NCBI RefSeq assembly: GCF_017656155.1
Contig: NZ_JACDOH010000003.1
Location: 124,001-188,000 of the forward strand
Length of the DNA stretch: 64,000 nucleotides
Direction: 5' to 3'
Source of the DNA: Thermosyntropha sp.
Lineage (GTDB): Bacteria > Bacillota > Syntrophomonadia > Syntrophomonadales > Syntrophomonadaceae
The stretch's first letter is position 1; each line of letters begins with the position of its first letter. The position numbers were made by a program, and so were the translations under genes. The notes below the pieces were generated by a model. The model did no database searches. It was not told the DNA's origin and saw nothing but the letters and a program-made list of their open reading frames with translations. This document shows positions 1,453-12,785 of this stretch, one piece after another.

Positions 1453-3477
1453 TCACCTTAAAATATTATACTTTCTAAGTTTTCTGTATATAGTGTTCCT
1501 GGAAACCCCCATCTCCTTGGCTACCCGGCTTATATTACCTCCATGCCGGGCAAGAAGGGTTATAAGCAGGCTGTACTCTTCTTTTTCTACATATCTTCGG
1601 TGCTTTTCCCTTTCCTGCTCAACTGAAAAAGACATAATTCCACCCTGGTTTTCTTCCCTTAAATTCTTTTCTTCATAAGAAGATTTTCCTTCCCTTATTT
1701 CAGAGGGAAGATCCCTTGCTGTTATTCTCTGTCCGCCGGTAATGTTCAAGATCCTCTCTACCACATTATGCAGCTCCCGGACATTGCCCGGCCAGCTGTA
1801 ACTGCTCAAGTAAGCTAAAACTTCCCGATCTACATCCGGCACTCTGCATCCCAGCTTGCTGCTTATATCTTCTAAAAAATAATAGAATAGAAGAGGAATA
1901 TCCCCGGGCCGCTCCCGCAGAGGCGGCAGGGTAATAGAAATTACATTAAGCCGGTAGTATAAATCCTGCCTGAAATTGCCTTTGCGCACTTCTTTGTATA
2001 AATCTTTATTGGTAGCGGATATTATGCGGACATCAACCGGAATAACCTGGTCATCGCCTATGCGGGTAATCTCTTTTTCCTGAATAGCTCTAAGGAGCGC
2101 AACCTGTTTACCTAAAGGCATTTCCCCGATTTCGTCCAAAAAAAGGGTTCCTCCGGAAGCCAGCTCAAATTTTCCCGGCCTTCCACCCTTTTTAGCTCCG
2201 GTAAAAGCTCCTTCCACATAACCGAAAAGTTCACTGCCTAAAAGTTCTCTGGGTATAGCCCCGCAGTTCACCGCAATAAAAGGTTCACTACACCGCGAAC
2301 TGCTGTTGTGTATAGCCTGGGCAAAAAGCTCTTTTCCGGTTCCGCTTTCACCCTGCAGGAGGACATTGCTGTTGGTAGTAGCTGCCATACGGGCTATTTT
2401 TACAGCTTCTAAAAATTTAGGGTCTCTGCCTATAATGTCATCAAAGGTAAATGTAGCATGGGATCCACTGAAGCGATTCACCAGATTACGGACTTTTCTT
2501 AAAGGGCTTAATATCATAATAGCTCCACTAGCTTTCCCTTTTTCATCACATATTAAAATCTGGGAAGCAATACAGTTTATAGTTTCTTCCTGGTTTTTTA
2601 TACTAACCTCTATATCGCTGTACTCCTCACAGTTCCCGTTTAAAAGCATATCTTCAACATGCCGGGGAAAACGTATAACCTTTCCAATAAAAACCCCTTT
2701 AAGTTTTGATATTCCTTTCCGCAAGATTTTTTCCGCTGCCGGATTCATCTGCTGGATAAAGCCCTCACTGTCTAAAAAAATTACCCCGTCAGACATGTTT
2801 ACAAAAACATTGTTCATTCTCCGGTTTATAATCGTAAGCTCCTGATTTTTTTGCTGGATCTTTATCTGCAGCATGATGGCTTCAGCAGCAGACACCGCCA
2901 TACCCAGGGTATGCAGATGGGTTTTTTCTGAAGGCCCTGATATATCGATTACCCCGATAATATTTCCTTTTTCATCTTTTATAGGAGCGGCCGAACAGGT
3001 CCAGCCATGCAAAAAAGGCGAATAATGCTCGGGACCCGAAACCTGTACCGGCCTTCCTGTCTTTATAGCAGTTCCTATCGAATTAGTTCCTGCTGCCTCT
3101 TCTGCCCAGAAAGTTCCCAAAGATATCAGCTTTTTGGCCTCTTCAAGAACATCTTTATCTCCCAAGGCCTCTATTACATAACCGTTTTCGTCAGTTAAAA
3201 CCACTATAAATCCTGAACCAGCCACAAATTCATGAATTTTGACCATAAGTGGACGCGCAATCTTTATTAGAACATCTTTTCTCATTATGAGCTCTTCTAT
3301 CTTATCTTCGCTCAAAACCGGAAGATTACATTCATTCTGAGGTAAAACCCCTTTTTTATAACACCTTATCCAGGATTCCGCAATCTCCCCCCGGAGTTTG
3401 GCCGTTTCCAGTTTTCCTGTCCGCATAAAATCCTGCCATATATTTTTTATCTCCAGGCCCTTCTCCGGATCCAGCAT
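1453..3477 (-). CDS. Sigma-54-dependent transcriptional activator (AcoR-like: GAF, PAS, AAA+, Fis HTH)
   Basis: A 674-residue enhancer-binding protein. A GAF-like sensory region covers residues ~60-200 and a PAS domain ~220-330. The AAA+ domain has Walker A GESGTGKE (376-383), the sigma-54 contact loop GAFTGA (423-428) and Walker B LFLDEIGEMP (~445-454). A Fis-type helix-turn-helix lies at ~635-672. The ribosome binding site AAGGAGG sits 6 nt upstream of the ATG. The architecture matches AcoR-type regulators of catabolic operons. It lies at the distal end of the AOR/Nuo-like cluster, which carries a -24/-12 promoter at 9148-9164, so that cluster is its most likely target. The GAF domain probably senses a small metabolite, perhaps an aldehyde or its precursor (inferred). 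Confidence 0.93.
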   Translation of the reverse strand: MLDPEKGLEIKNIWQDFMRTGKLETAKLRGEIAESWIRCYKKGVLPQNECNLPVLSEDKIEELIMRKDVLIKIARPLMVKIHEFVAGSGFIVVLTDENGYVIEALGDKDVLEEAKKLISLGTFWAEEAAGTNSIGTAIKTGRPVQVSGPEHYSPFLHGWTCSAAPIKDEKGNIIGVIDISGPSEKTHLHTLGMAVSAAEAIMLQIKIQQKNQELTIINRRMNNVFVNMSDGVIFLDSEGFIQQMNPAAEKILRKGISKLKGVFIGKVIRFPRHVEDMLLNGNCEEYSDIEVSIKNQEETINCIASQILICDEKGKASGAIMILSPLRKVRNLVNRFSGSHATFTFDDIIGRDPKFLEAVKIARMAATTNSNVLLQGESGTGKELFAQAIHNSSSRCSEPFIAVNCGAIPRELLGSELFGYVEGAFTGAKKGGRPGKFELASGGTLFLDEIGEMPLGKQVALLRAIQEKEITRIGDDQVIPVDVRIISATNKDLYKEVRKGNFRQDLYYRLNVISITLPPLRERPGDIPLLFYYFLEDISSKLGCRVPDVDREVLAYLSSYSWPGNVRELHNVVERILNITGGQRITARDLPSEIREGKSSYEEKNLREENQGGIMSFSVEQEREKHRRYVEKEEYSLLITLLARHGGNISRVAKEMGVSRNTIYRKLRKYNILR

Positions 3478-3519: not shown

Positions 3520-3564
3520 ACAAAACCGGCTTTGCTCTGAAAAAAGAACAAAGCCGGTTTTGTT
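3520..3564 (-). terminator. Terminator hairpin after the NuoG-like gene
   Basis: A 15-bp perfect stem: ACAAAACCGGCTTTG (3520-3534) pairs with CAAAGCCGGTTTTGT (3550-3564). It starts 7 nt after the stop of the NuoG-like gene and precedes the sigma-54 activator. It separates the regulator from the oxidoreductase operon, although the minus-direction T tract is interrupted. Confidence 0.75.
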
Positions 3565-3570
3565 TTTAAA

Positions 3571-4311
3571 CTAAACTGAAAATTCTTTTATTACCTCTGC
3601 GGTTTGCCTTTTCCGGCAGCCTTCACAGAGGAACTTTTCTATTTTTCTTCCTGTTTTATCTTCGATAAATCTTATCTGTTCAGGAGTTGCAAATTCTCTT
3701 CCACAGCTCTCGCATTTTATTAAATCAAAGGTTTTATGCCAGATAATTCTCTGCCCATTTTCCTCTTTCACTTCAATGGCTCCGGTAGGGCAAATCTCAG
3801 CACATGCCTTACAGCCTATACATTCCTCAGCCCCCTCTGCATAAGGTGTCTCTATCCTTTTGTCAACTCCGCGGGAAACAGCAGCCAAAACTGCACTTCC
3901 CATCTCTTCACAAGCATTTACGCATAAACGGCACAGGATACATTTTTCATTTTCAAATCCTTTGAAAAAAAACGGTTTAACCTCATACTCCCCAGCCATT
4001 TTCTGAGCAAAAGGGCTTGCCTGAGCTCTTCCAGCTATGAGCATAGCTAGAGTTTTTCTTATTTTCCTTATTTTTTCCGAAGAAGTTATTACCTTAAGCC
4101 CATCACTCACTGGATAAGTACAGGAAGCTACCAATTTTCTCTGTCCCCTGCTGTCAATAATCTCTACCATACACATGCGACATGCCCCCTGCCCCTTGAA
4201 AGCCGGATGGTAGCAGAGGGTGGGAATAAATATATTTTCCCGGCGACATACCTCAAGGATAGCTTCCCCTGGATAAGCCATAACCTCGCGTTCATCTATC
4301 ATAATCTTCAT
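3571..4311 (-). CDS. NuoG/HydA-N-terminus-like iron-sulfur subunit of an oxidoreductase complex
   Basis: A 246-residue electron-transfer subunit. Cys33, Cys44, Cys47 and Cys64 form the plant-type [2Fe-2S] site of NuoG and HydA N-termini. The His/Cys cluster that usually follows in NuoG is not evident. Two [4Fe-4S] motifs follow (CILCRLCVNAC and CIGCKACAEIC), and a C-terminal CxxC...CxxC pair (CESC, CEGC) looks like a small zinc-ribbon or rubredoxin-like knuckle. There is no hydrogenase H-cluster or molybdopterin domain, so this is purely a wire. It is 13 nt downstream of the NuoF-like gene and is the last gene before a terminator. By analogy with HydABC/Bfu-type and NuoEFG complexes it should link the flavin subunit to ferredoxin or to the AOR module. 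Confidence 0.88.
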   Translation of the reverse strand: MKIMIDEREVMAYPGEAILEVCRRENIFIPTLCYHPAFKGQGACRMCMVEIIDSRGQRKLVASCTYPVSDGLKVITSSEKIRKIRKTLAMLIAGRAQASPFAQKMAGEYEVKPFFFKGFENEKCILCRLCVNACEEMGSAVLAAVSRGVDKRIETPYAEGAEECIGCKACAEICPTGAIEVKEENGQRIIWHKTFDLIKCESCGREFATPEQIRFIEDKTGRKIEKFLCEGCRKRQTAEVIKEFSV

Positions 4312-4324
4312 GCTCTGCCACCTC

Positions 4325-6139
4325 CTATCTCACCTTGACTGCCTTAAAGCGGCACCGGCGATAACATTCGCCACAGCGGATGCATTTGTCCTCTATAATT
4401 TCATGCTTCTTTTTAGCTTCACCTTTAATCGCATCAACCGGACAATTGCGTTTGCAAAGGGTGCATCCAGTGCATAGTTCAGGGTCAATATAAAATGTAG
4501 TGAGAGCAGGACATACCCCGGCTGGACACCTTTTATCAACTATATGGGCAATATATTCATCCTCAAAAAAGCGCAAAGTCGATAAAACCGGGTTAGGAGC
4601 AGTTCTTCCCAAAGCACAAAGGGAAGCTTCCTGCATAACTTCCGATATATCCCTTAAAAGCTGTAAATCACTAAGTTCCCCTTCTCCCTTACATATCCGG
4701 GTTAAAATCTCAACCAGTGCCCTTATTCCTTCCCGGCAGGGAGTGCATTTACCACATGATTCCCCGGCCAAAAAGTTTGTATAATAGCGGGCAACTTCCA
4801 CCATACAGGTGGTATCATCCATAACAATAATACCACCAGAACCCATCATGGAGCCTTCACGGGTTAAGGTATCAAAATCCACCTTTAGGTCAAGATGGCT
4901 TGCGGGAATGCACCCTCCGGATGGCCCTCCGGTCTGAACTGCTTTAAACTGGCGTCCTTCCGGAACTCCACCGCCTATTTCATATATAATCTCGCGCAAA
5001 GTTATTCCCATAGGGACCTCTACCAAACCGGTATTAACCACTTTTCCTACCAACGAAAATACCTTAGTTCCAGGGCTCCCTTCAGTCCCCAGAGAAGCAA
5101 ATTTTTCCGCACCGTGAAGGATAATCACCGGGATATTAGCCCAGGTCTCCACATTATTGATAACCGTAGGCTGTCCCCATAATCCCTTTTCGGTAGGAAA
5201 GACATATTTATCGTGTGGTTCCCCTGGATATCCTTCAATAGACTTGATAAGAGCAGTTTCTTCTCCGCAGACAAAGGCTCCTCCACCCCTCACCAGTTCA
5301 ATATCAAAACATAAATTGCTTCCCAAAATGTTTTCCCCTAAAAATCCGCGCTCTCTCGCATCTAAAATTGCCTGTCCCAGATATTTAACCGCCAGGTCAT
5401 ACTCATCCCGGACATAAATAAAGCCTTTTTCCGCATTTAACACATAAGCACAAATAAGCATACCTTCGATAATAGTATGCGGATCACCTTCCATAATACT
5501 GCGATCCATGAAAGCCCCCGGATCACCTTCATCTCCATTACATATTATATATTTGGGAAAACGGGGGGTGTTTTTACAGGCCTGCCATTTAAGGCCGGTT
5601 GGGAAACCTCCTCCCCCTCTTCCGCGCAAACCTGATTTTAAAATTTCCTCTATTACCTCATCCGGAGTCATTTCTTTCAATACTTTTTCTAAAGCCTTAT
5701 AACCTCCGCGCTCGATATAGTCATCAATAGATCCTGGGTCAATTTCCCCAATATTGCGCAGAGCAATTTTATGCTGTTTGCGGTAAAAATCAGTCTGATG
5801 AATAGAAGTTACAAACTCCTTCTTTACCGGATCACGATAAAGAAGACGCTTTACAAGTTCTCCCTTTAAAAGGGTTTTTTCAATTATTTCATCTACATCC
5901 TCTGCCTTAACATGACAATAGCTGATATCCTGCGGCATAATCTTGACTATTGGCCCTTTTTCGCACCAGCCATTACAGCCGGTCGCTTTTAAAACCGGCA
6001 CAACCGCAAAATCCGGATTATCCTTGAGCCTGTCCATAAAAGCTGCAAGAACCTGCCTGGCACCATTAGCCGTGCAGCCGGTTCCACAGCAAACCATAAT
6101 TTTATTTACACTGCTTTCAATCTTCATTTTTTCCTTCAT
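4325..6139 (-). CDS. NuoF/HydB-like flavin subunit (NADH dehydrogenase-type, extra iron-sulfur domains)
   Basis: About 604 residues. An N-terminal thioredoxin-like [2Fe-2S] domain (CCGTGC...CNGWC) precedes the NuoF core with the glycine-rich FMN/NADH motif GRGGGGFPTGLKW. The [4Fe-4S] motif ESCGKCTPCREG has a fourth Cys downstream, and two C-terminal [4Fe-4S] motifs (CTGCTLCKRNC, CIRCGECYRRC) complete it. This long form is characteristic of HydB/BfuB-type subunits of electron-bifurcating complexes. The start was set at the ATG at 6139 because GGAGG lies 8 nt upstream; an in-frame ATG at 6154 is poorly placed. It overlaps nuoE by 23 bases. It probably exchanges electrons between NAD(H) and the iron-sulfur wires. 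Confidence 0.92.
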   Translation of the reverse strand: MKEKMKIESSVNKIMVCCGTGCTANGARQVLAAFMDRLKDNPDFAVVPVLKATGCNGWCEKGPIVKIMPQDISYCHVKAEDVDEIIEKTLLKGELVKRLLYRDPVKKEFVTSIHQTDFYRKQHKIALRNIGEIDPGSIDDYIERGGYKALEKVLKEMTPDEVIEEILKSGLRGRGGGGFPTGLKWQACKNTPRFPKYIICNGDEGDPGAFMDRSIMEGDPHTIIEGMLICAYVLNAEKGFIYVRDEYDLAVKYLGQAILDARERGFLGENILGSNLCFDIELVRGGGAFVCGEETALIKSIEGYPGEPHDKYVFPTEKGLWGQPTVINNVETWANIPVIILHGAEKFASLGTEGSPGTKVFSLVGKVVNTGLVEVPMGITLREIIYEIGGGVPEGRQFKAVQTGGPSGGCIPASHLDLKVDFDTLTREGSMMGSGGIIVMDDTTCMVEVARYYTNFLAGESCGKCTPCREGIRALVEILTRICKGEGELSDLQLLRDISEVMQEASLCALGRTAPNPVLSTLRFFEDEYIAHIVDKRCPAGVCPALTTFYIDPELCTGCTLCKRNCPVDAIKGEAKKKHEIIEDKCIRCGECYRRCRFKAVKVR

Positions 6140-6623
6140 GGGCATATCCTCCATACTCCCTGATAATTTTTTCTACATCACCCGGCATTACTTTGGCATA
6201 AACCCTGTCATTTACCACCACCACCGGGGCCAAAGCACATGCGCCCAGACAATTTACTGTTTCTATTGAAAATCTACCATCCGGGGTGGTTTCGCCCGGT
6301 CTTATGCCCAAACACTTATAAAGCTGCTCTATCAGGGTTTCCGATCCTTTAATATGACAGGCAGTTCCGTCACATACCCTGAAGACATATTGCCCCTTAG
6401 GAGTCAAGCTGAAAGCTTTATAAAATGAGGCCATGGCATAAACGCGGCTTAAAGGAACCCCTACATAAAAAGCAAGCATTCTTAGGCCGGCTTTAGGGAG
6501 ATAGTTAAACCTTTTTTGCATATCCTGCATTACTGCTAAAATATAGCGTTCTTCAGGAGGATAATTATCAAGTATCTCCCTTATATCCGCAAGCATCTTT
6601 GCTTCATCTGCAACCTTCACCAT
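6117..6623 (-). CDS. NuoE-like thioredoxin-fold [2Fe-2S] subunit
   Basis: A 168-residue NuoE/HydC homologue: a helical N-terminus (DNYPPEERYILAVMQDMQ), then a thioredoxin-like domain with the four cluster ligands in CDGTAC and CLGAC. The ATG is preceded by GGAGG at 8 nt. It is the first gene of a three-gene set (E, F, G order) and its end overlaps the start of the NuoF-like gene. NuoE proteins pair with NuoF as a diaphorase, and this should apply here. Only 33 nt separate its start from a long hairpin (6657-6704), leaving little room for its own promoter, so expression probably comes from read-through of the AOR transcript. Confidence 0.93.
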   Translation of the reverse strand: MVKVADEAKMLADIREILDNYPPEERYILAVMQDMQKRFNYLPKAGLRMLAFYVGVPLSRVYAMASFYKAFSLTPKGQYVFRVCDGTACHIKGSETLIEQLYKCLGIRPGETTPDGRFSIETVNCLGACALAPVVVVNDRVYAKVMPGDVEKIIREYGGYAHEGKNED

Positions 6624-6735: not shown

Positions 6736-8535
6736 TTAAGCTAGGTCTAATTCTTTAAGCTTTTCTTCAGTCGGAACACCGTTTTCATCCCATCCGCGCA
6801 CTTTATAATAAAGCGGAAGCATAACATCGAGTTTAACTACATTCCCTTTATGTGGACCATCTTTCATAGGCTCTTTTAAAAGCCTTTCAGGGAGTGTATC
6901 GTCTTTAGCCGAAAAACCTGCCTTAAGATTAAACAAACGTTCTAAATTCCAAATGCGCTCCCCTGCTTTAAGATATTCTTCATCTGAGATATTAAATCCG
7001 GTAGCCGTTCTAAGCTGTTCAGCAAGTTCTGGAAGTCCCAGAGCAAAAGTTACAAAAAGGCATATACCGGAAGAATCGAGGAGAGCCGTTAAATCCTGGA
7101 ATGTCTTTAAAAGTTCAGGTTTTCCTTCTACCGTATCAGGGTCAACCTTAACCGGAACGCCTAAAACTTCAGGAGAAGTCATATATCCTCTTACATGACA
7201 GCCTCCCCGGTTTGATGTAGCATATTCAAGACCTATTCCCTGTTGTCCCCTTGGATCATAAGCAGGCAGTTCCTGTTTTTTAACAGTCATTGAAAACTCA
7301 GGATGCCCATAGCTTTCAGCTAACCTATAAGAACCTTCCGCCAATTCGTCCCCAAAACCTTCCCGGTAAGCAGTCTTTCGAACCATCTCTACCAGCATTT
7401 CGCCATCGCCCCAGTCAAGGTTAATCTTATCCCTGGGGATTATCCCCTTTTGCACCATTTCTACCGCACAGGCCAAGGTTCCGCCCATAGTTATAGGGTC
7501 AAGTCCCAACTCGTTGCAAAGGAAATTAGCCTTACTTATCGCTTCAAAATTATCTATTCCCAGATTAGAGCCAAAAGCCCAGGTAGCTTCGTATTCCGGA
7601 CCTTCTCCCAAGCTCCTGAACTTGCCTTCTTTTATGCGGGTAACCCTTCCGCAGGCAATTGAACAGCCAAAACAGCCTTTATTTCGCACCAGGTATTTTT
7701 CAGCCTGATATTCCCCGGAAATCTTTTCGGCATTCGGGAATACCGCAGCTTCGCTGAAGTTTTTAACCGGCAGTCCTCCATGCTCATTCAAGATGTTTAT
7801 CAAAACATTGGTTCCATAGGAAGGAAGACCTGAACTGGTTACCGGATGTTCTTTAAGCTTCTTTCTGGCATCTAAAACTGCAGCCTTAAAGCCTTCACGG
7901 TCAGCCACTTTAATTCCGCCCGTTCCCCTGACTGCTATTGCTTTAAGGTTTTTAGAGCCCATTACCGCACCTACGCCTGAACGTCCCGCTGCCCGGTTGT
8001 ATTCGTTCATAATGCAGGCAAACTTAACCAAATTTTCTCCAGCCGGTCCAATACATGCTACTTTAGCCTCTTCATCTGTTTCTGCTTTAATAGTATCAGT
8101 AGTTGTAACCACATCGGTTCCCCAGATGTGAGATGCGCTTCTCAATTCGACCTTATCATCATTTATCCAGAGATATACCGGCTCTTTTGCCTTGCCTTCA
8201 ATAATGACTCCATCATAACCTGCATATTTCAGTTCCGGACCAAAACTGCCGCCTGAGTTAGAAGCCGCAATAGTTCCGTTCAAAACCCCTTTAGTAACAA
8301 CATTATAGCGGCCGGCCGAGCTGGCTAAAGTCCCGGTAAGAGGCCCAGTCATAAATATAATCTTATTTTCTTCACTTAAAGGATCCACTTTGGGATCTAC
8401 CTCGTCGCAGAATATCTTAGTGCCTAATCCCCTGGCGCCTATGTAGCCATGCAGCAGCTCTTCATCAATTTCTTCAAGCCTGACAGTTCCTGCAGTAAGG
8501 TCAACCCGTAAGACTTTTCCCATCCATCCGTACAT
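6736..8535 (-). CDS. aor: Tungsten/molybdenum aldehyde:ferredoxin oxidoreductase
   Basis: A 599-residue member of the AOR family, which oxidises aldehydes to carboxylic acids with a bis-pyranopterin tungsten (or Mo) cofactor and a [4Fe-4S] cluster. The N-terminus [14 protein letters not shown] is family-typical. The cluster ligands are Cys288, Cys291, Cys295 (CFGCSIAC) and Cys492 (DSSGICLF), and the cofactor-binding segments EGPEYE (~311) and AYDPRG (~425) are present. The length equals that of characterised AORs, with no truncation. The gene follows the ferredoxin subunit by 2 nt, and its Shine-Dalgarno sequence lies in that gene's last codons. The downstream NuoEFG-like genes suggest electrons can go to NAD as well as ferredoxin. 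Exact substrate range is not readable from the sequence. Confidence 0.95.
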
Positions 8536-8537
8536 CT

Positions 8538-9044
8538 TTACCTTACCTCCTCTAAAACTTCTTTAATCTTAGCCGCTGCTGCCCGCCTCTTCAAGCTTAC
8601 TGCCGGACTGGATTTACTAAAAGTCAATGCTTTCGAACCGCAATTCTTTACACATTCTGGATCTCCTCCGCAGAGATCACATTTTATGATCTGGTTGTCT
8701 TTGGCATCATAAAAAGTAGCTCCGAAAGGACAGGCAATCATACACATCTTGCAGCGTATGCATACTTCATGGTTAACTTCCATGGCACCGGTAGCTTCAC
8801 TGCGGGATATAGCCCCTACCGGACATACCTCCATACACGGTGCCGGATCGCACTGCTGGCATACTGCGGGGAAAAAGAAACCAGTCTTTTCAAAGCCTAC
8901 TACTGCTATTCTGGATCGTGTCGGGTCAAACTCCCCTGTATGCATAAACGAACAGGTAAGCTCACAGGTGCGACAGCCGGTACATTTCTCAGGCTGAACA
9001 TAAATAACATTTCCCATACCTTTTCCTGGCCCGCCCTTAGGCAA
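8538..9044 (-). CDS. Four-cluster [4Fe-4S] ferredoxin subunit (AOR partner)
   Basis: A 168-residue HycB/AorA/WorS-type protein with sixteen Cys in four CxxCxxCxxxC-like groups: [35 protein letters not shown] and [14 protein letters not shown]. It sits 2 nt upstream of the AOR gene and should relay electrons out of the tungstopterin subunit. Start choice: TTG at 9044 has GGGAGG about 9 nt upstream and was kept. An ATG at 9017 gives the N-terminus [12 protein letters not shown] that is usual for the family and has an AGGA nearby, so it remains possible. The gene is first after the sigma-54 promoter. Confidence 0.92.
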
Positions 9045-9078
9045 ACCAGTTTACTCCCTCCCTTTCTCTTTATTTTCA

Positions 9079-9111
9079 CAGTCCTGAATATTTTCAAAAA
9101 ATCAAGGACTG
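9079..9111 (-). other. Stem-loop in the 5' leader of the ferredoxin-AOR transcript
   Basis: CAGTCCT (9079-9085) pairs with AGGACTG (9105-9111) around a 19-nt AT-rich loop. It lies between the predicted sigma-54 start point (about 9138) and the ribosome binding site. It could stabilise the 5' end; no known riboswitch motif is recognised. Confidence 0.45.
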
Positions 9112-9147
9112 CTCAAAAACCTGTCTAGCTAATCTGTTATTCAGATA

Positions 9148-9164
9148 TTGCAAAATTTATGCCA
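9148..9164 (-). promoter_or_regulatory. Sigma-54 (-24/-12) promoter for ferredoxin-AOR
   Basis: On the minus strand the sequence reads TGGCATAAATTTTGCAA, which fits the RpoN consensus TGGCAC-N5-TTGCA with GG (9162-9163) and GC (9150-9151) exactly 10 nt apart. It is 104 nt upstream of the ferredoxin start and directly in front of the only operon in the window with a nearby sigma-54 activator. Transcription would begin near 9138. Confidence 0.85.
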
Positions 9165-9238
9165 GAATTAAGAAAATAAAAAAACAGCGTCAGATGATGC
9201 TTTATAAGCTTTTGCCTTTTTCAGTTATGTTTCATAAG

Positions 9239-9298
9239 TGTAACATATATGTAACTTTAGTGGCATTATATTAACATTGCTTTAACATATTGTTACAC
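9239..9298 (-). promoter_or_regulatory. Putative upstream activator sites (two related palindromes)
   Basis: TGTAACATATATGTAAC (9239-9255) and TTAACATATTGTTACAC (9282-9298) are related near-palindromes. They share TGTAACA followed by ATATGT, the second being read on the opposite strand. They lie 75-135 nt upstream of the -24 element, the usual distance for enhancer-binding proteins, between the moeB-like stop and the promoter. Assignment to the regulator at 1453-3477 is inferred. Confidence 0.55.
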
Positions 9299-9303
9299 AT
9301 CTC

Positions 9304-9993
9304 TCAGGCTAATTCTAAAACTTCACTTTCCATTTCCAAAAAATCAAAAAACAGAACTTTCCCGTGCAGGATTTCTCCGCGCCCTAAAATAACCTTGACC
9401 GCCTCTGCCGCCTGCAAAGCAGCTGTTCCACCCACCACAAAAGACAGAACTCCTTCCTCTTTTTCAATCCCCTGCCCTTTAATGCCCATCCGGCAGAGAT
9501 TTTCCAAAGTTTCATCCCCGGGAAACTGGGTTCCTACTTCTCCGTACCATCCCCCTACCATACCGTAAACTAAAGGAACCTTCTTTTCCCGACATATTCC
9601 GGCAAGTTCCAGACGAGAAGGAATACTGTCCAGGGCATCTACTACTACCTTTATGTCGCTCTCCCACATCTCTTCAAAACCTTCTTCAAACCTCGCCTTT
9701 ATGCCTTTAAACTCTACTTCCGGATTAATAAGAGACAAAGCCTCTTTTACCACCTCAACCTTGCTCTTATTGATAGTTGACATATCGGCAAAAATTTGAC
9801 GGTTAAGGTTGTGTTCGGCAAACTCATCCGGGTCAAAAGCTGTAATTTTGCCTACTCCAAGCCTTGCCAGGTAAGATATGACATATCCGCCCAGTCCTCC
9901 ACAACCTGCTACCAGAACATGCGATCTTTTAAGCTCTTCCTGTTCCTTCCTGTCTATCGCATTAAAATTGCGCATGTACCTGATATTAACCAC
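9304..9993 (-). CDS. ThiF/MoeB/HesA-family adenylyltransferase (pterin cofactor sulfur carrier activation)
   Basis: A 229-residue Rossmann-type E1-like enzyme with the nucleotide-binding motif AGCGGLGGYV (~30), the acidic FDPDEF and the NLNRQ arginine-finger segment. Such enzymes adenylate the C-terminal Gly-Gly of MoaD or ThiS. The protein immediately upstream is a MoaD-like carrier ending in GGG. The pair resembles the accessory genes found with Aromatoleum aromaticum AOR, and it probably serves assembly of the AOR pyranopterin cofactor. Only three Cys are present and the paired CxxC zinc ligands of E. coli MoeB are absent. Start codon is uncertain: GTG at 9993 overlaps the carrier gene, and ATG at 9975 is the alternative. 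Confidence 0.85.
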   Translation of the reverse strand: MVNIRYMRNFNAIDRKEQEELKRSHVLVAGCGGLGGYVISYLARLGVGKITAFDPDEFAEHNLNRQIFADMSTINKSKVEVVKEALSLINPEVEFKGIKARFEEGFEEMWESDIKVVVDALDSIPSRLELAGICREKKVPLVYGMVGGWYGEVGTQFPGDETLENLCRMGIKGQGIEKEEGVLSFVVGGTAALQAAEAVKVILGRGEILHGKVLFFDFLEMESEVLELA

Positions 9994-10210
9994 CTCCTAC
10001 CAGTGGAAAGATAGACAACACATCCCCTTCCTTAAGTTCGACTTCTAAAGAGACATGTTTGCCGTTTATAAAAATTATCCCCAGTTCTTTTACCGGAAGG
10101 GAAAGCTGTTTTACTACATCTTTCACCTTAGTTCCTTCCGGATAATCAAAAACCTCCTCCTTAAACCGCCCTTTCCGGAAAGTCGCAAAAAGCTTTACCT
10201 TTACCTTCAA
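9986..10210 (-). CDS. MoaD/ThiS-family sulfur carrier protein
   Basis: A 74-residue beta-grasp protein. The N-terminus MKVKVKLFATFRKGR and the C-terminal FPLVGGG, with the Gly-Gly end that is thiocarboxylated, are typical of MoaD. The start is TTG with AAGGAGGTG 7 nt upstream. It overlaps the adenylyltransferase gene by 8 bases, so carrier and activating enzyme are made together. A role in molybdo/tungstopterin synthesis for the neighbouring AOR is inferred from context; ThiS function is the alternative, but no thiamine genes are nearby. Confidence 0.88.
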   Translation of the reverse strand: MKVKVKLFATFRKGRFKEEVFDYPEGTKVKDVVKQLSLPVKELGIIFINGKHVSLEVELKEGDVLSIFPLVGGG

Positions 10211-10224
10211 TTTCGCACACCTCC

Positions 10225-10311
10225 TTATATTCCTTTTTCTATTCCTTTCTTTATCAACTTTTCTGCAATAATTATGAATTTCCCACTCCTTTTGGGAATT
10301 GTTCCTTTCAT
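10225..10311 (-). CDS. Candidate 28-residue basic peptide upstream of the MoaD-like gene
   Basis: A short frame starting ATG at 10311, MKGTIPKRSG then a hydrophobic/cationic helix ending KKGIEKGI. It ends with TAA directly before the AAGGAGG of the MoaD-like gene. A purine-rich GAAGGGA lies about 10 nt upstream of the ATG, and an in-frame TGA precedes it. It could be a small protein or leader peptide coupled to the carrier gene, or chance. I recognise no family. Confidence 0.35.
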   Translation of the reverse strand: MKGTIPKRSGKFIIIAEKLIKKGIEKGI

Positions 10312-10575
10312 GCTTTTATCCCTTCACATTCAATATTCTCCCTTACCATTATTACATATATTAATATATTGATCAGATAATCAGGCACTCCTCTTTTTTT
10401 AATGTAACTAAAATACTAAAATTCCTAAATATTTGCTTTTTAGCCAAAAGTTATAAATATAATTTTAATAAATAGAAAATAATCTGTTTTTAATTTATAA
10501 GGTTTTGTCGTATAATGTCATTTAGGGCTTAACATTTCAAAAATTTACAGTTTAATCTTTAGGAGGTATATAACT
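10312..10575. promoter_or_regulatory. Divergent intergenic region with plus-strand promoter
   Basis: AT-rich spacer between the MoaD-like unit and the plus-strand SpmA-like gene. A plus-strand -10 TATAAT at 10511-10516 has a weak -35 (TTTTAA, 10488-10493) 17 nt upstream, and AGGAGG follows at 10561. An imperfect inverted repeat (AATTTCCCA...TTGGGAATT, ~10278-10300) lies just outside, inside the small peptide frame. No strong minus-strand promoter or riboswitch is evident. Confidence 0.45.
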
Positions 10576-10992
10576 ATTTACGACATTGTTCGCAGAGGAA
10601 TTGCTAAAGGGCTTAATCTTAGTTGGGAACTCGTAATCAAAGTAGTTTTGCCCGTATACCTAATTGTGTCGTTTTTGACATATACGCCGGTAATCAACTG
10701 GTTATCCAAAATCATGACTCCTCTAATGCAGCTTATAGGGTTACCGGGAGAGGCAACAGTTCCCATCGTTCTAGGAGCTTTGGTCAGTGTTTATGCTGGT
10801 ATCGCAGCAGTTGTTCCGCTAGGGTTTGATGTTAAAGAGCTCACCATAATTGCAGCCATCCTGCTTATTGCTCATGATATTCCTATAGAAGCAGCCGTAA
10901 GCAAGAAAACCGGCAGCACTTTTATAAGCCTTATAATCATAAGAATTATTGTGGCTTTTGTGGTGGGAGCAGTTATAAATTTGATAATGTAG
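10576..10992 (+). CDS. SpmA-like membrane protein with nucleoside-recognition (Gate) domain, copy 1
   Basis: About 138 residues with three or four hydrophobic helices and the Gate-domain-like stretch PLMQLIGLPGEATVPIVLGALVSVYAG. It is homologous to the protein at 20767-21180. No ATG, GTG or TTG exists in frame near the ribosome binding site. AGGAGG (10561-10566) is 9 nt before an ATT codon at 10576, which aligns exactly with the ATG of the paralogue. The first in-frame TTG (10648) would delete 24 conserved residues. The AUU start is therefore the best reading. It is paired with the SpmB-like gene 10 nt downstream. Family function (spore maturation or transport) is unsettled. Confidence 0.8.
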   Translation: MYDIVRRGIAKGLNLSWELVIKVVLPVYLIVSFLTYTPVINWLSKIMTPLMQLIGLPGEATVPIVLGALVSVYAGIAAVVPLGFDVKELTIIAAILLIAHDIPIEAAVSKKTGSTFISLIIIRIIVAFVVGAVINLIM

Positions 10993-11002
10993 GAGGAGCA
11001 CT

Positions 11003-11470
11003 TTGCAACCAATAAATATAATATTAGAAGTAGTAAAAGGTAGTATTACTCTTGTTATCCAATTGTCATTGATAATAATCGGCATAATGATACTGATAGA
11101 ATTCCTGCAAACCTATAATATCTTGAATAAACTTACCGCGTTCATAACACCTATAACAAAATTAGCAGGAATATCCAGGAATGGCAATTTGTCTATTCTT
11201 GCCGGACTCCTGCTGGGTATAGGCTATGGTGGAGCTATTATTATTGACTCTGCTCAGCAGGGAAAACTGAAACCGGAAGAAATCTACCTTATAAACTTAT
11301 TTTTGGTAATATGTCACTCTTTAGTAGAAGATACACTTATTTGGTTAGCTATAGGTGCCAAAGTGATTCATATTCAAATAGCTCGTCTGTTTCTGGCCAT
11401 ATTGATTTGTTTTATCTGTTCATGGTATCTACAAAGAATAAATACTGACAGACAGAATATCAATCTATAA
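11003..11470 (+). CDS. SpmB-like membrane protein with nucleoside-recognition (Gate) domain, copy 1
   Basis: A 155-residue membrane protein: an N-terminal helix (SITLVIQLSLIIIGIMILIEF), the Gate-like GNLSILAGLLLGIGYGGAIIIDSA and a C-terminal hydrophobic helix. The TTG start is preceded by GGAGGAGC. Together with the SpmA-like gene it forms a two-gene unit, repeated at 20284-21180 with the same gene order in transcription. The motif order resembles Bacillus SpmB and E. coli YjiG. A heterodimeric transporter or spore-dehydration role is possible. Confidence 0.85.
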   Translation: MQPINIILEVVKGSITLVIQLSLIIIGIMILIEFLQTYNILNKLTAFITPITKLAGISRNGNLSILAGLLLGIGYGGAIIIDSAQQGKLKPEEIYLINLFLVICHSLVEDTLIWLAIGAKVIHIQIARLFLAILICFICSWYLQRINTDRQNINL

Positions 11471-11630
11471 AAAACCTTATTTCACTTTGGCTGTTATGTT
11501 TAATCCTGGAGAAACATGTATATTACGAGATAAAGCTAACCACCTCACAATATTTTTATATTCCCTTATGTGTTTATCAATAATTTGCAAAAAAGTATAG
11601 ATGTTGAGCAATCATTCCTAAATTATTTCT

Positions 11631-12785
11631 CTACATATTAAAATAATTCATAAATCCTTTGGTATAAGCAAATGATAACATTTGAGATAACAACGAAGCC
11701 TCCATCAACCTATTATCCGCTGTACGTTCCAATACCAAGCTGTTCAAATCATCATATAACTCTAAAGTATATTCTTGAGGTTCTTCAGAAAACATTTCCT
11801 TATGTCTTTGATATCTTCTTACATCTTGTCGGGAAAAACCAAGGCTTCTATGCACGTAGTTTTCCATTCTTTCAACAGAAATTTTCAAATCAGCCAAAAA
11901 TTTAATATTATCCTCATTTTGGAGAAGTTTGTATAAGAAAAAGCTGCTGCATAATTTGCAAAATTCAACTGCCTCTTCTACATTCATATTTTGCAAAGGG
12001 GTAAAATCAATCTGATTACCATTGAATTCTTCATTCAATTCCGATATAATTGTAAACGCTGTAAAACAGCCATATTCCAAAGCACGAAAAAAGTCCCTGA
12101 AAAAGTCGTTTTCTGGGAAACTATCGGCTACTTTACGAAAATGCATCAAGACACTATTTAGTCCGAAAGGTATTTTTACCTGCTTATTGTTGTTTTCTTC
12201 CTTTTCCGCTTTAAGTTCATTAATTTTTTCAGCAGGTAATTCCAGATATTGCAAAGCCCTTTTTGTTGCTTCATGCAATGATTGCAAAGAAGAAAAATCC
12301 CCAGTCATATAAACTTCCTCAGCTCCATATACCCCATTAGCTAACATTTCATTTAGTTCATTAGATTCCATTTTTCGCAGGAACTCAAGCAACATAAGTA
12401 CTGACAGTGGAGCAAAATGGTCTTCATCTCCCATTGAATTAGATGTTATAATTATCGGACAGCCATTACTGTCTTCGATCAATTCTCCTGAATATGTTTT
12501 TATTGGATTCAAAACAGGTTTATCAATCAGCATAAAATCCGACTCAAAATAATTAAATACCGATTTATCCAGGTTGTTTACACTAACATTGACCACACTC
12601 CTCAGATTTTGTACCAACTGTTGAGCATTACCCAGGTTAAAAATCATTTTAGTATAATATGTAACGAAAAGTTGAGAAAATAACAATAAACTATTACGCT
12701 CATAACCTTTTGAAATACTGCACTTGACTGAAGCACTTAACTTATCCCTAAAGTCAATATCTGCCTTAGCTATCAATCTGTCCAT
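11631..12785 (-). CDS. Unrecognised 384-residue protein
   Basis: No family recognised. The protein is mostly helical in appearance, with no signal peptide, no obvious membrane segment and no clear enzymatic motif. Notable segments are an acidic GDEDHFAPLSVLMLLEFLRKM near residue 120, a charged stretch KAEKEENNNK near 195, and a C-terminal half rich in aromatic and acidic residues. GGAGG lies 8 nt before the ATG. The gene is more AT-rich than the housekeeping genes around it and is flanked by noncoding DNA on both sides, consistent with accessory or acquired DNA. A perfect 14-bp palindrome sits immediately upstream of the ribosome binding site. Confidence 0.75.
   Translation of the reverse strand: MDRLIAKADIDFRDKLSASVKCSISKGYERNSLLLFSQLFVTYYTKMIFNLGNAQQLVQNLRSVVNVSVNNLDKSVFNYFESDFMLIDKPVLNPIKTYSGELIEDSNGCPIIITSNSMGDEDHFAPLSVLMLLEFLRKMESNELNEMLANGVYGAEEVYMTGDFSSLQSLHEATKRALQYLELPAEKINELKAEKEENNNKQVKIPFGLNSVLMHFRKVADSFPENDFFRDFFRALEYGCFTAFTIISELNEEFNGNQIDFTPLQNMNVEEAVEFCKLCSSFFLYKLLQNEDNIKFLADLKISVERMENYVHRSLGFSRQDVRRYQRHKEMFSEEPQEYTLELYDDLNSLVLERTADNRLMEASLLSQMLSFAYTKGFMNYFNM

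Follow-up and report, generated by a model that had tools for sequence, protein, structure and literature searches.

A predicted sigma-54 control region with a phased half-site array ahead of a Class IV tungsten aldehyde oxidoreductase operon in the Syntrophomonadaceae

Sigma-54-dependent control of AOR genes has been predicted before. Nie et al. (2019) predicted that aor-moaD of Clostridium and Geosporobacter is controlled by sigma-54 and AorR through sites of the form TGT-N10-12-ACA (PMC6615313), and the locus tag of a sigma-54-related regulator of C. autoethanogenum (00450) is next to that of AOR1 (00445) (PMC10230548). Because of the prediction by Nie et al., and because AdhR of Clostridium beijerinckii is a tested relative in mechanism (PMC7017808), we regard the kind of switch described below as already known, and the view of the initial annotation that such control of an AOR is rarely documented has to be moderated to that extent. 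For bifurcating-class tungsten aldehyde oxidoreductases the enzymology is known, while the paper that classifies the Class IV enzymes leaves regulation aside (neither "regulat" nor "sigma" occurs in its text; PMC13328260). The region analyzed here very probably serves to control, through sigma-54 and a linked activator, a Class IV operon of gene order SLCBA whose enzyme is linked to both NAD and ferredoxin.

The operon and its sigma-54 promoter element

The window, meaning the whole 64-kb stretch of DNA that was analyzed, is C3:124001-188000 of a Syntrophomonadaceae genome of 2.11 Mb in 15 contigs. Its AOR is 97% identical to that of a Syntrophomonadaceae MAG and 91% identical to that of Thermosyntropha lipolytica. 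The cluster lies on the minus strand and runs from ThiF through the region under study to WorS-L-C-B-A and then the activator. The upstream neighbor, a ThiF/MoeB-like adenylyltransferase gene (9304 to 9993), occupies the 3'-terminal position of the cluster in other relatives. The operon begins with a WorS-like four-cluster ferredoxin subunit (8538 to 9017), followed by a WorL-like tungsten aldehyde:ferredoxin oxidoreductase with AFOR_N and AFOR_C domains (6736 to 8535), a WorC/NuoE-like 2Fe-2S subunit (6117 to 6623), a WorB/NuoF-like flavoprotein with N-terminal 2Fe-2S and C-terminal 2x4Fe-4S domains (4325 to 6154), and, as the final gene, a WorA/HoxU-like Fe-S subunit (3571 to 4311). The WorSLCBA order of these five genes and the Fe-S-rich WorB are those of a Class IV WOR, and SLCBA is the order of the type 1 Class IV tungsten oxidoreductases (PMC13328260). 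The domains of the NuoF-like subunit are as expected of a bifurcating module, which suggests that the enzyme may bifurcate.

The sigma-54 -24/-12 element, TGGCATAAATTTTGCA, is at 9149 to 9164 on the minus strand and would place the transcription start of the operon near 9138. It is intergenic and correctly oriented, and it has a TGGCAY-N5-TTGCW-type core with 10 nt from GG to GC. The initial annotation had read this TGGCAT-N5-TTGCA as a -24/-12 element with correct spacing, and that reading holds: the element is the only exact match in the window, the pattern TGGCAYNNNNNTTGCW has 11 matches genome-wide compared with 0 for a reversed-pattern control, and the element is conserved in the family. 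By inspection, 8 of the 11 genome matches look intergenic and lie ahead of genes, and the other 3 are inside coding sequence. The genome has one copy of rpoN and four true sigma-54 activators, and for each of the three other than the linked one there is a sigma-54 site no more than about 2.5 kb away (C2:59430, C5:185214, and C6:21960). Beyond these three, further sigma-54 sites of the genome (G000; L093-L100) are at C2:100618, C3:69445, C9:213, and C12:5712. Judging from their translated starts, the genes behind these seven sites are CoA-transferase-like, purine-catabolism, permease, amidohydrolase, and ABC substrate-binding protein genes.

The half-site array and the linked activator

Upstream of the promoter element, a TGTNACA-like array of putative activator sites occupies 9228 to 9297 on the minus strand. 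Counted from the first T of the -24 element, its seven half-sites (9291-9297, 9281-9287, 9270-9276, 9259-9265, 9250-9256, 9239-9245, and 9228-9234) start at -133, -123, -112, -101, -92, -81, and -70, which is a series of steps of 10, 11, 11, 9, 11, and 11 bp. Two of them, TGTAACA at -133 and TGTTACA at -81, are stronger than the rest, and TGTTAAT at -112 and TGCCACT at -101 are degenerate. Since each half, TGTNACA, is itself palindromic, the structure is best called a row of half-sites. The two palindromes that the initial annotation had placed 75 to 135 nt upstream are real, but there are more than two, and they are the upstream and downstream parts of this array. Several conserved, phased sites at -70 to -133 are what is expected upstream of a promoter served by an enhancer-binding protein, and the array is close to the lower end of the range quoted for activator sites (100 to 250 bp; PMC6615313).

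The motif learned from relatives, with the window and its nearest relative held out, is TGTAACA-N4-TGTTACA, and shuffling gives a P value of 0.0005 for the best site in the window. Distances between half-sites in the family are strongly enriched at 11 bp (25 observed versus 0.2 expected), 22 bp (15 versus 0.16), and 33 bp (10 versus 0.22), with further peaks at 20, 31, 42, and 53 bp that correspond to one 9-bp step. With at most one mismatch, TGTNACA-N4-TGTNACA occurs twice in the window, compared with 0.06 expected, and at three places genome-wide, two of them at this promoter and one on C6. A search of the genome for TGTAACA-type palindromes at other sigma-54 promoters, which the initial annotation had proposed, found no TGTNACA array at any of those seen in this genome. 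The same search with two mismatches is uninformative, because it gives 42 matches per strand compared with 49 in the control.

The activator gene (1453 to 3477, minus strand) encodes GAF and PAS domains, an AAA+ Sigma54_activat domain with the GAFTGA loop, and a Fis-type HTH, the last three of which are the features of an enhancer-binding protein. DhaR appears twice among its matches, as structure 4lrx for the GAF-PAS part and, below the cut-off, as the best curated model. The description of this protein as an AcoR-type activator at the end of the same cluster is therefore correct as to the intact GAFTGA and the linkage but not as to type, and the gene is probably not part of the operon. The linked operon is AOR/NuoEF-like and not the acoABCL of the acetoin regulator AcoR. 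A strong hairpin (AAAACCGGCTTTG...CAAAGCCGGTTTT; 3522 to 3561, minus strand, by reading of the sequence), which is a likely terminator, follows the HoxU-like gene, and in the other gene order found among relatives the activator lies upstream of the promoter. For both reasons the activator gene is probably its own transcription unit.

Based on this arrangement, we propose that RNA polymerase with sigma-54 would wait in a closed state at 9149 to 9164, while the separately transcribed activator would sense a metabolite through its GAF/PAS part and bind the 11-bp-phased TGTNACA array about 70 to 140 bp upstream of the -24 element. Bound activator would then oligomerize, loop to sigma-54, and melt the promoter by ATP hydrolysis, so that the operon would be induced by the metabolite.

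Conservation of these elements is pronounced. Among loci with a locatable ferredoxin start, and with the pattern sought within 700 bp, the promoter is present in 18 of 19 Syntrophomonadaceae-type loci compared with 2 of 36 loci from elsewhere. The 19th family locus (L024) has a degenerate element, TGGAATAAATTTTGCA, and one of the two outside matches, L034 from Holophagaceae, has an activator gene directly upstream. Its upstream neighbor varies (ThiF, the activator, or a MoaD-like gene), yet the cassette always stands ahead of the ferredoxin gene. Among family loci that could be assessed, 21 of 25 have the activator gene next to the operon, in one of two gene orders (our count, over family genomes whose full-length AOR is at least 74% identical); promoter and array are kept without a linked activator at L021, L024, and L124. 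In one genome (G031), the operon is retained (L123), and its upstream region has neither the array nor a -24/-12 element. At the cut-off used, the only matches to the activator in that genome are ~49% identical over the C-terminal two thirds and lie in proteins of 907 to 913 residues. This appears to be a co-loss of activator, array, and promoter, which, as a single case, adds to the support. Two loci (L019 and L123) have an unusually long leader of several hundred bases before the ferredoxin gene, with GTACCC-like repeats in L019. A contig labeled Pelotomaculum (L023) is identical to the Syntrophomonas contig L022 over the compared region and may be a mislabeled bin.

The conservation throughout the family of the promoter, the array, and the activator gene, the co-loss in G031, and the lack of such sites at the other sigma-54 promoters of the genome all support the suggestion of the initial annotation that the linked activator controls this operon through sigma-54. 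In an improbable alternative, this promoter would be driven by one of the other three activators in the genome, and the linked one would act on a different operon. Such an arrangement would be in line with family members such as G033, G006, and G009, where the activator gene lies apart from the target. However, each of the remaining three has a nearby sigma-54 promoter of its own that lacks TGTNACA arrays, and the linkage of this activator to the operon in most family loci persists across two gene orders.

Still less probable is a repressor, such as Rex, acting at the palindromes, with most transcription of the operon due to read-through from thiF or to a sigma-A promoter. The palindromes are AT-rich and look like redox-repressor operators, and the stem-loop with a T-run that lies between array and promoter (approximately 9179 to 9202, minus strand) is weak in the window, with a 6-bp stem containing 1 mismatch. 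A terminator scan found none at this position, and in about half of the family loci the corresponding stem-loop is a strong terminator. The operator core of Rex is of the TTAA type, whereas the half-site here is TGTNACA with N4 spacing (AACA-N4-TGTT). A scan of the region for sigma-70 promoters gave best matches of 9/12, which is chance level, and the cassette is the same behind each of its three kinds of upstream gene (ThiF, activator, and MoaD-like). A repressor would also leave the co-conservation of the palindromes with the sigma-54 elements unexplained. Least probable of all is control chiefly by the tungsten/molybdenum cofactor via a riboswitch, a probable mode of control in some relatives, since the sub-threshold Mo/W riboswitch matches ahead of homologous operons (L028, 32.6 bits; L031, 27.4 bits) have no counterpart in the window, where positions 8000 to 11700, including the leader, gave no Rfam match (RF01055 included) even at an E value of 5. 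The RF01055 matches below the gathering score are at 6091-6199 of L028 and 9305-9416 of L031, and both of these relatives lack the sigma-54 cassette.

The predicted control by sigma-54 and the linked activator raises the question of the signal. The initial annotation had suggested that the GAF domain may recognize an aldehyde, an alcohol, or a related metabolite. Several paralogous activators, about 50% identical, adjoin sigma-54 promoters of metabolic genes, and the neighbors include an Fe-alcohol dehydrogenase at L118 and L130 and an aldehyde dehydrogenase at L118, L128, L130, L131, and L134, which makes an alcohol- or aldehyde-type signal plausible. Lin0512-family genes, the neighbors at L117, L121, L129, and L132, do not point to aldehydes. 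In a tree of 31 activators, paralogues are interspersed among the operon-linked proteins, which make up several groups (4 label changes, 2 or more of them forced), and a single monophyletic clade of AOR activators is not supported. Because of this mixing, the association between activator and operon is not one simple orthologous line.

The paralogue targets differ from the AOR promoters in the spacing of half-sites. Among half-site pairs 8 to 13 bp apart, 29 of 40 at AOR promoters have the 11-bp spacing compared with 3 of 18 at the targets of paralogues (Fisher P value of 0.0001, with pairs that are not independent). Counted by promoter, the values are 15 of 19 and 3 of 11 (P = 0.009). Since the promoter sets were chosen after looking at them, we treat this difference as a lead. 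One tentative reading, which we hold to be possible but rather doubtful, is that the activator family, expanded in the Syntrophomonadaceae, reads a common TGTNACA half-site and that its targets are split by half-site spacing and helical phase, each with a related alcohol/aldehyde signal; 11 bp might then specify the tungsten aldehyde oxidoreductase, and 9 or 12 bp the alcohol/aldehyde dehydrogenase genes.

Hairpins in the leader of the first gene

Two hairpins lie between the predicted transcription start and the first gene. One (CAGTCCTTGA...TTCAGGACTG; 9079 to 9111, minus strand, by reading of the sequence) is not conserved in sequence across the family. The other (9026 to 9049, minus strand) lies between the Shine-Dalgarno sequence (GGAGGGA, 9055 to 9061) and the ATG (9015 to 9017) and shows covariation. 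We take ATG 9017 as the most likely start of the ferredoxin gene, because relatives share it and the hairpin on the TTG side changes frame between them. TTG 9044 was rejected as a start on the same grounds, the part upstream of the ATG being a hairpin with a shifting frame. A leader peptide from an invariant CTG was also rejected, as its frames differ between relatives and stops occur.

The hairpin between Shine-Dalgarno sequence and ATG is present in 22 loci, three Sedimentibacter-type loci (L031-L033) among them, and its pattern occurs once in the genome. The arms were paired by script, because MAFFT alignments set them out of register. Across 12 distinct arm pairs, every one of the 84 pairings holds, compared with a mean of 75.9 when partners are shuffled (P = 0.001). 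The 3' arm was, however, selected as the one that pairs best, which favors pairing, and the shuffle control removes this bias only in part. Changes occur on both sides of the stem; for example, pair 4 is G-C, U-A, or A-U. The distance from Shine-Dalgarno sequence to ATG is 29 to 38 nt linearly and 10 to 13 nt with the hairpin taken out. The hairpin is also kept where there is no sigma-54 promoter, both at L123 of G031, where the promoter has been lost (by reading), and in Sedimentibacter, where it is absent.

Comparison with known systems

A dedicated, conserved sigma-54 switch in syntrophic fatty-acid oxidizers suggests that the enzyme is made on demand. The switch provides a putative regulator and DNA sites that can be tested, as well as a handle on the physiological substrate of the enzyme, and the paralogues beside alcohol/aldehyde dehydrogenase genes suggest a family of related sensors.

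The enzyme itself has a close counterpart in the Class IV WorSLCBA of Eubacterium limosum (PMC13328260), with which the window operon shares gene order and domain content. With AdhR/sigma-54 at adhA1/adhA2 of C. beijerinckii (PMC7017808), the window system shares a GAF-PAS-AAA+-HTH activator, several upstream sites (three at the AdhR targets), a sigma-54 promoter, and a connection to alcohol/aldehyde metabolism; the AdhR system acts on another target gene and enzyme and has been tested experimentally, whereas ours is predicted from sequence. For the hairpin, the precedent is in phage T4 genes 38 and 25, in which a hairpin between Shine-Dalgarno sequence and start likewise shortens the spacing (in gene 25, effectively from 27 to 11 nt; PMC3014915). 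In contrast with the T4 leaders, the hairpin in the window belongs to a bacterial metabolic operon and is conserved with covariation, and its effect on translation is putative; it is an addition to a known kind.

The closest likeness is to the AorR regulon (PMC6615313), which also combines a predicted sigma-54 promoter before an AOR gene, a dedicated activator, and TGT...ACA inverted-repeat sites. TGTAACA-N4-TGTTACA is TGT-N12-ACA before an AOR operon, and so has the form of an AorR-group site, a likeness of sites and promoter. The target of AorR is aor-moaD, whereas the predicted target here is a five-gene SLCBA operon in the family Syntrophomonadaceae, and a multi-half-site array phased at 11 bp is a feature of the window promoter that differs from the AorR regulon. 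To a known kind of switch, this locus would thus add a target class, a family, an 11-bp phased array, and a leader hairpin.
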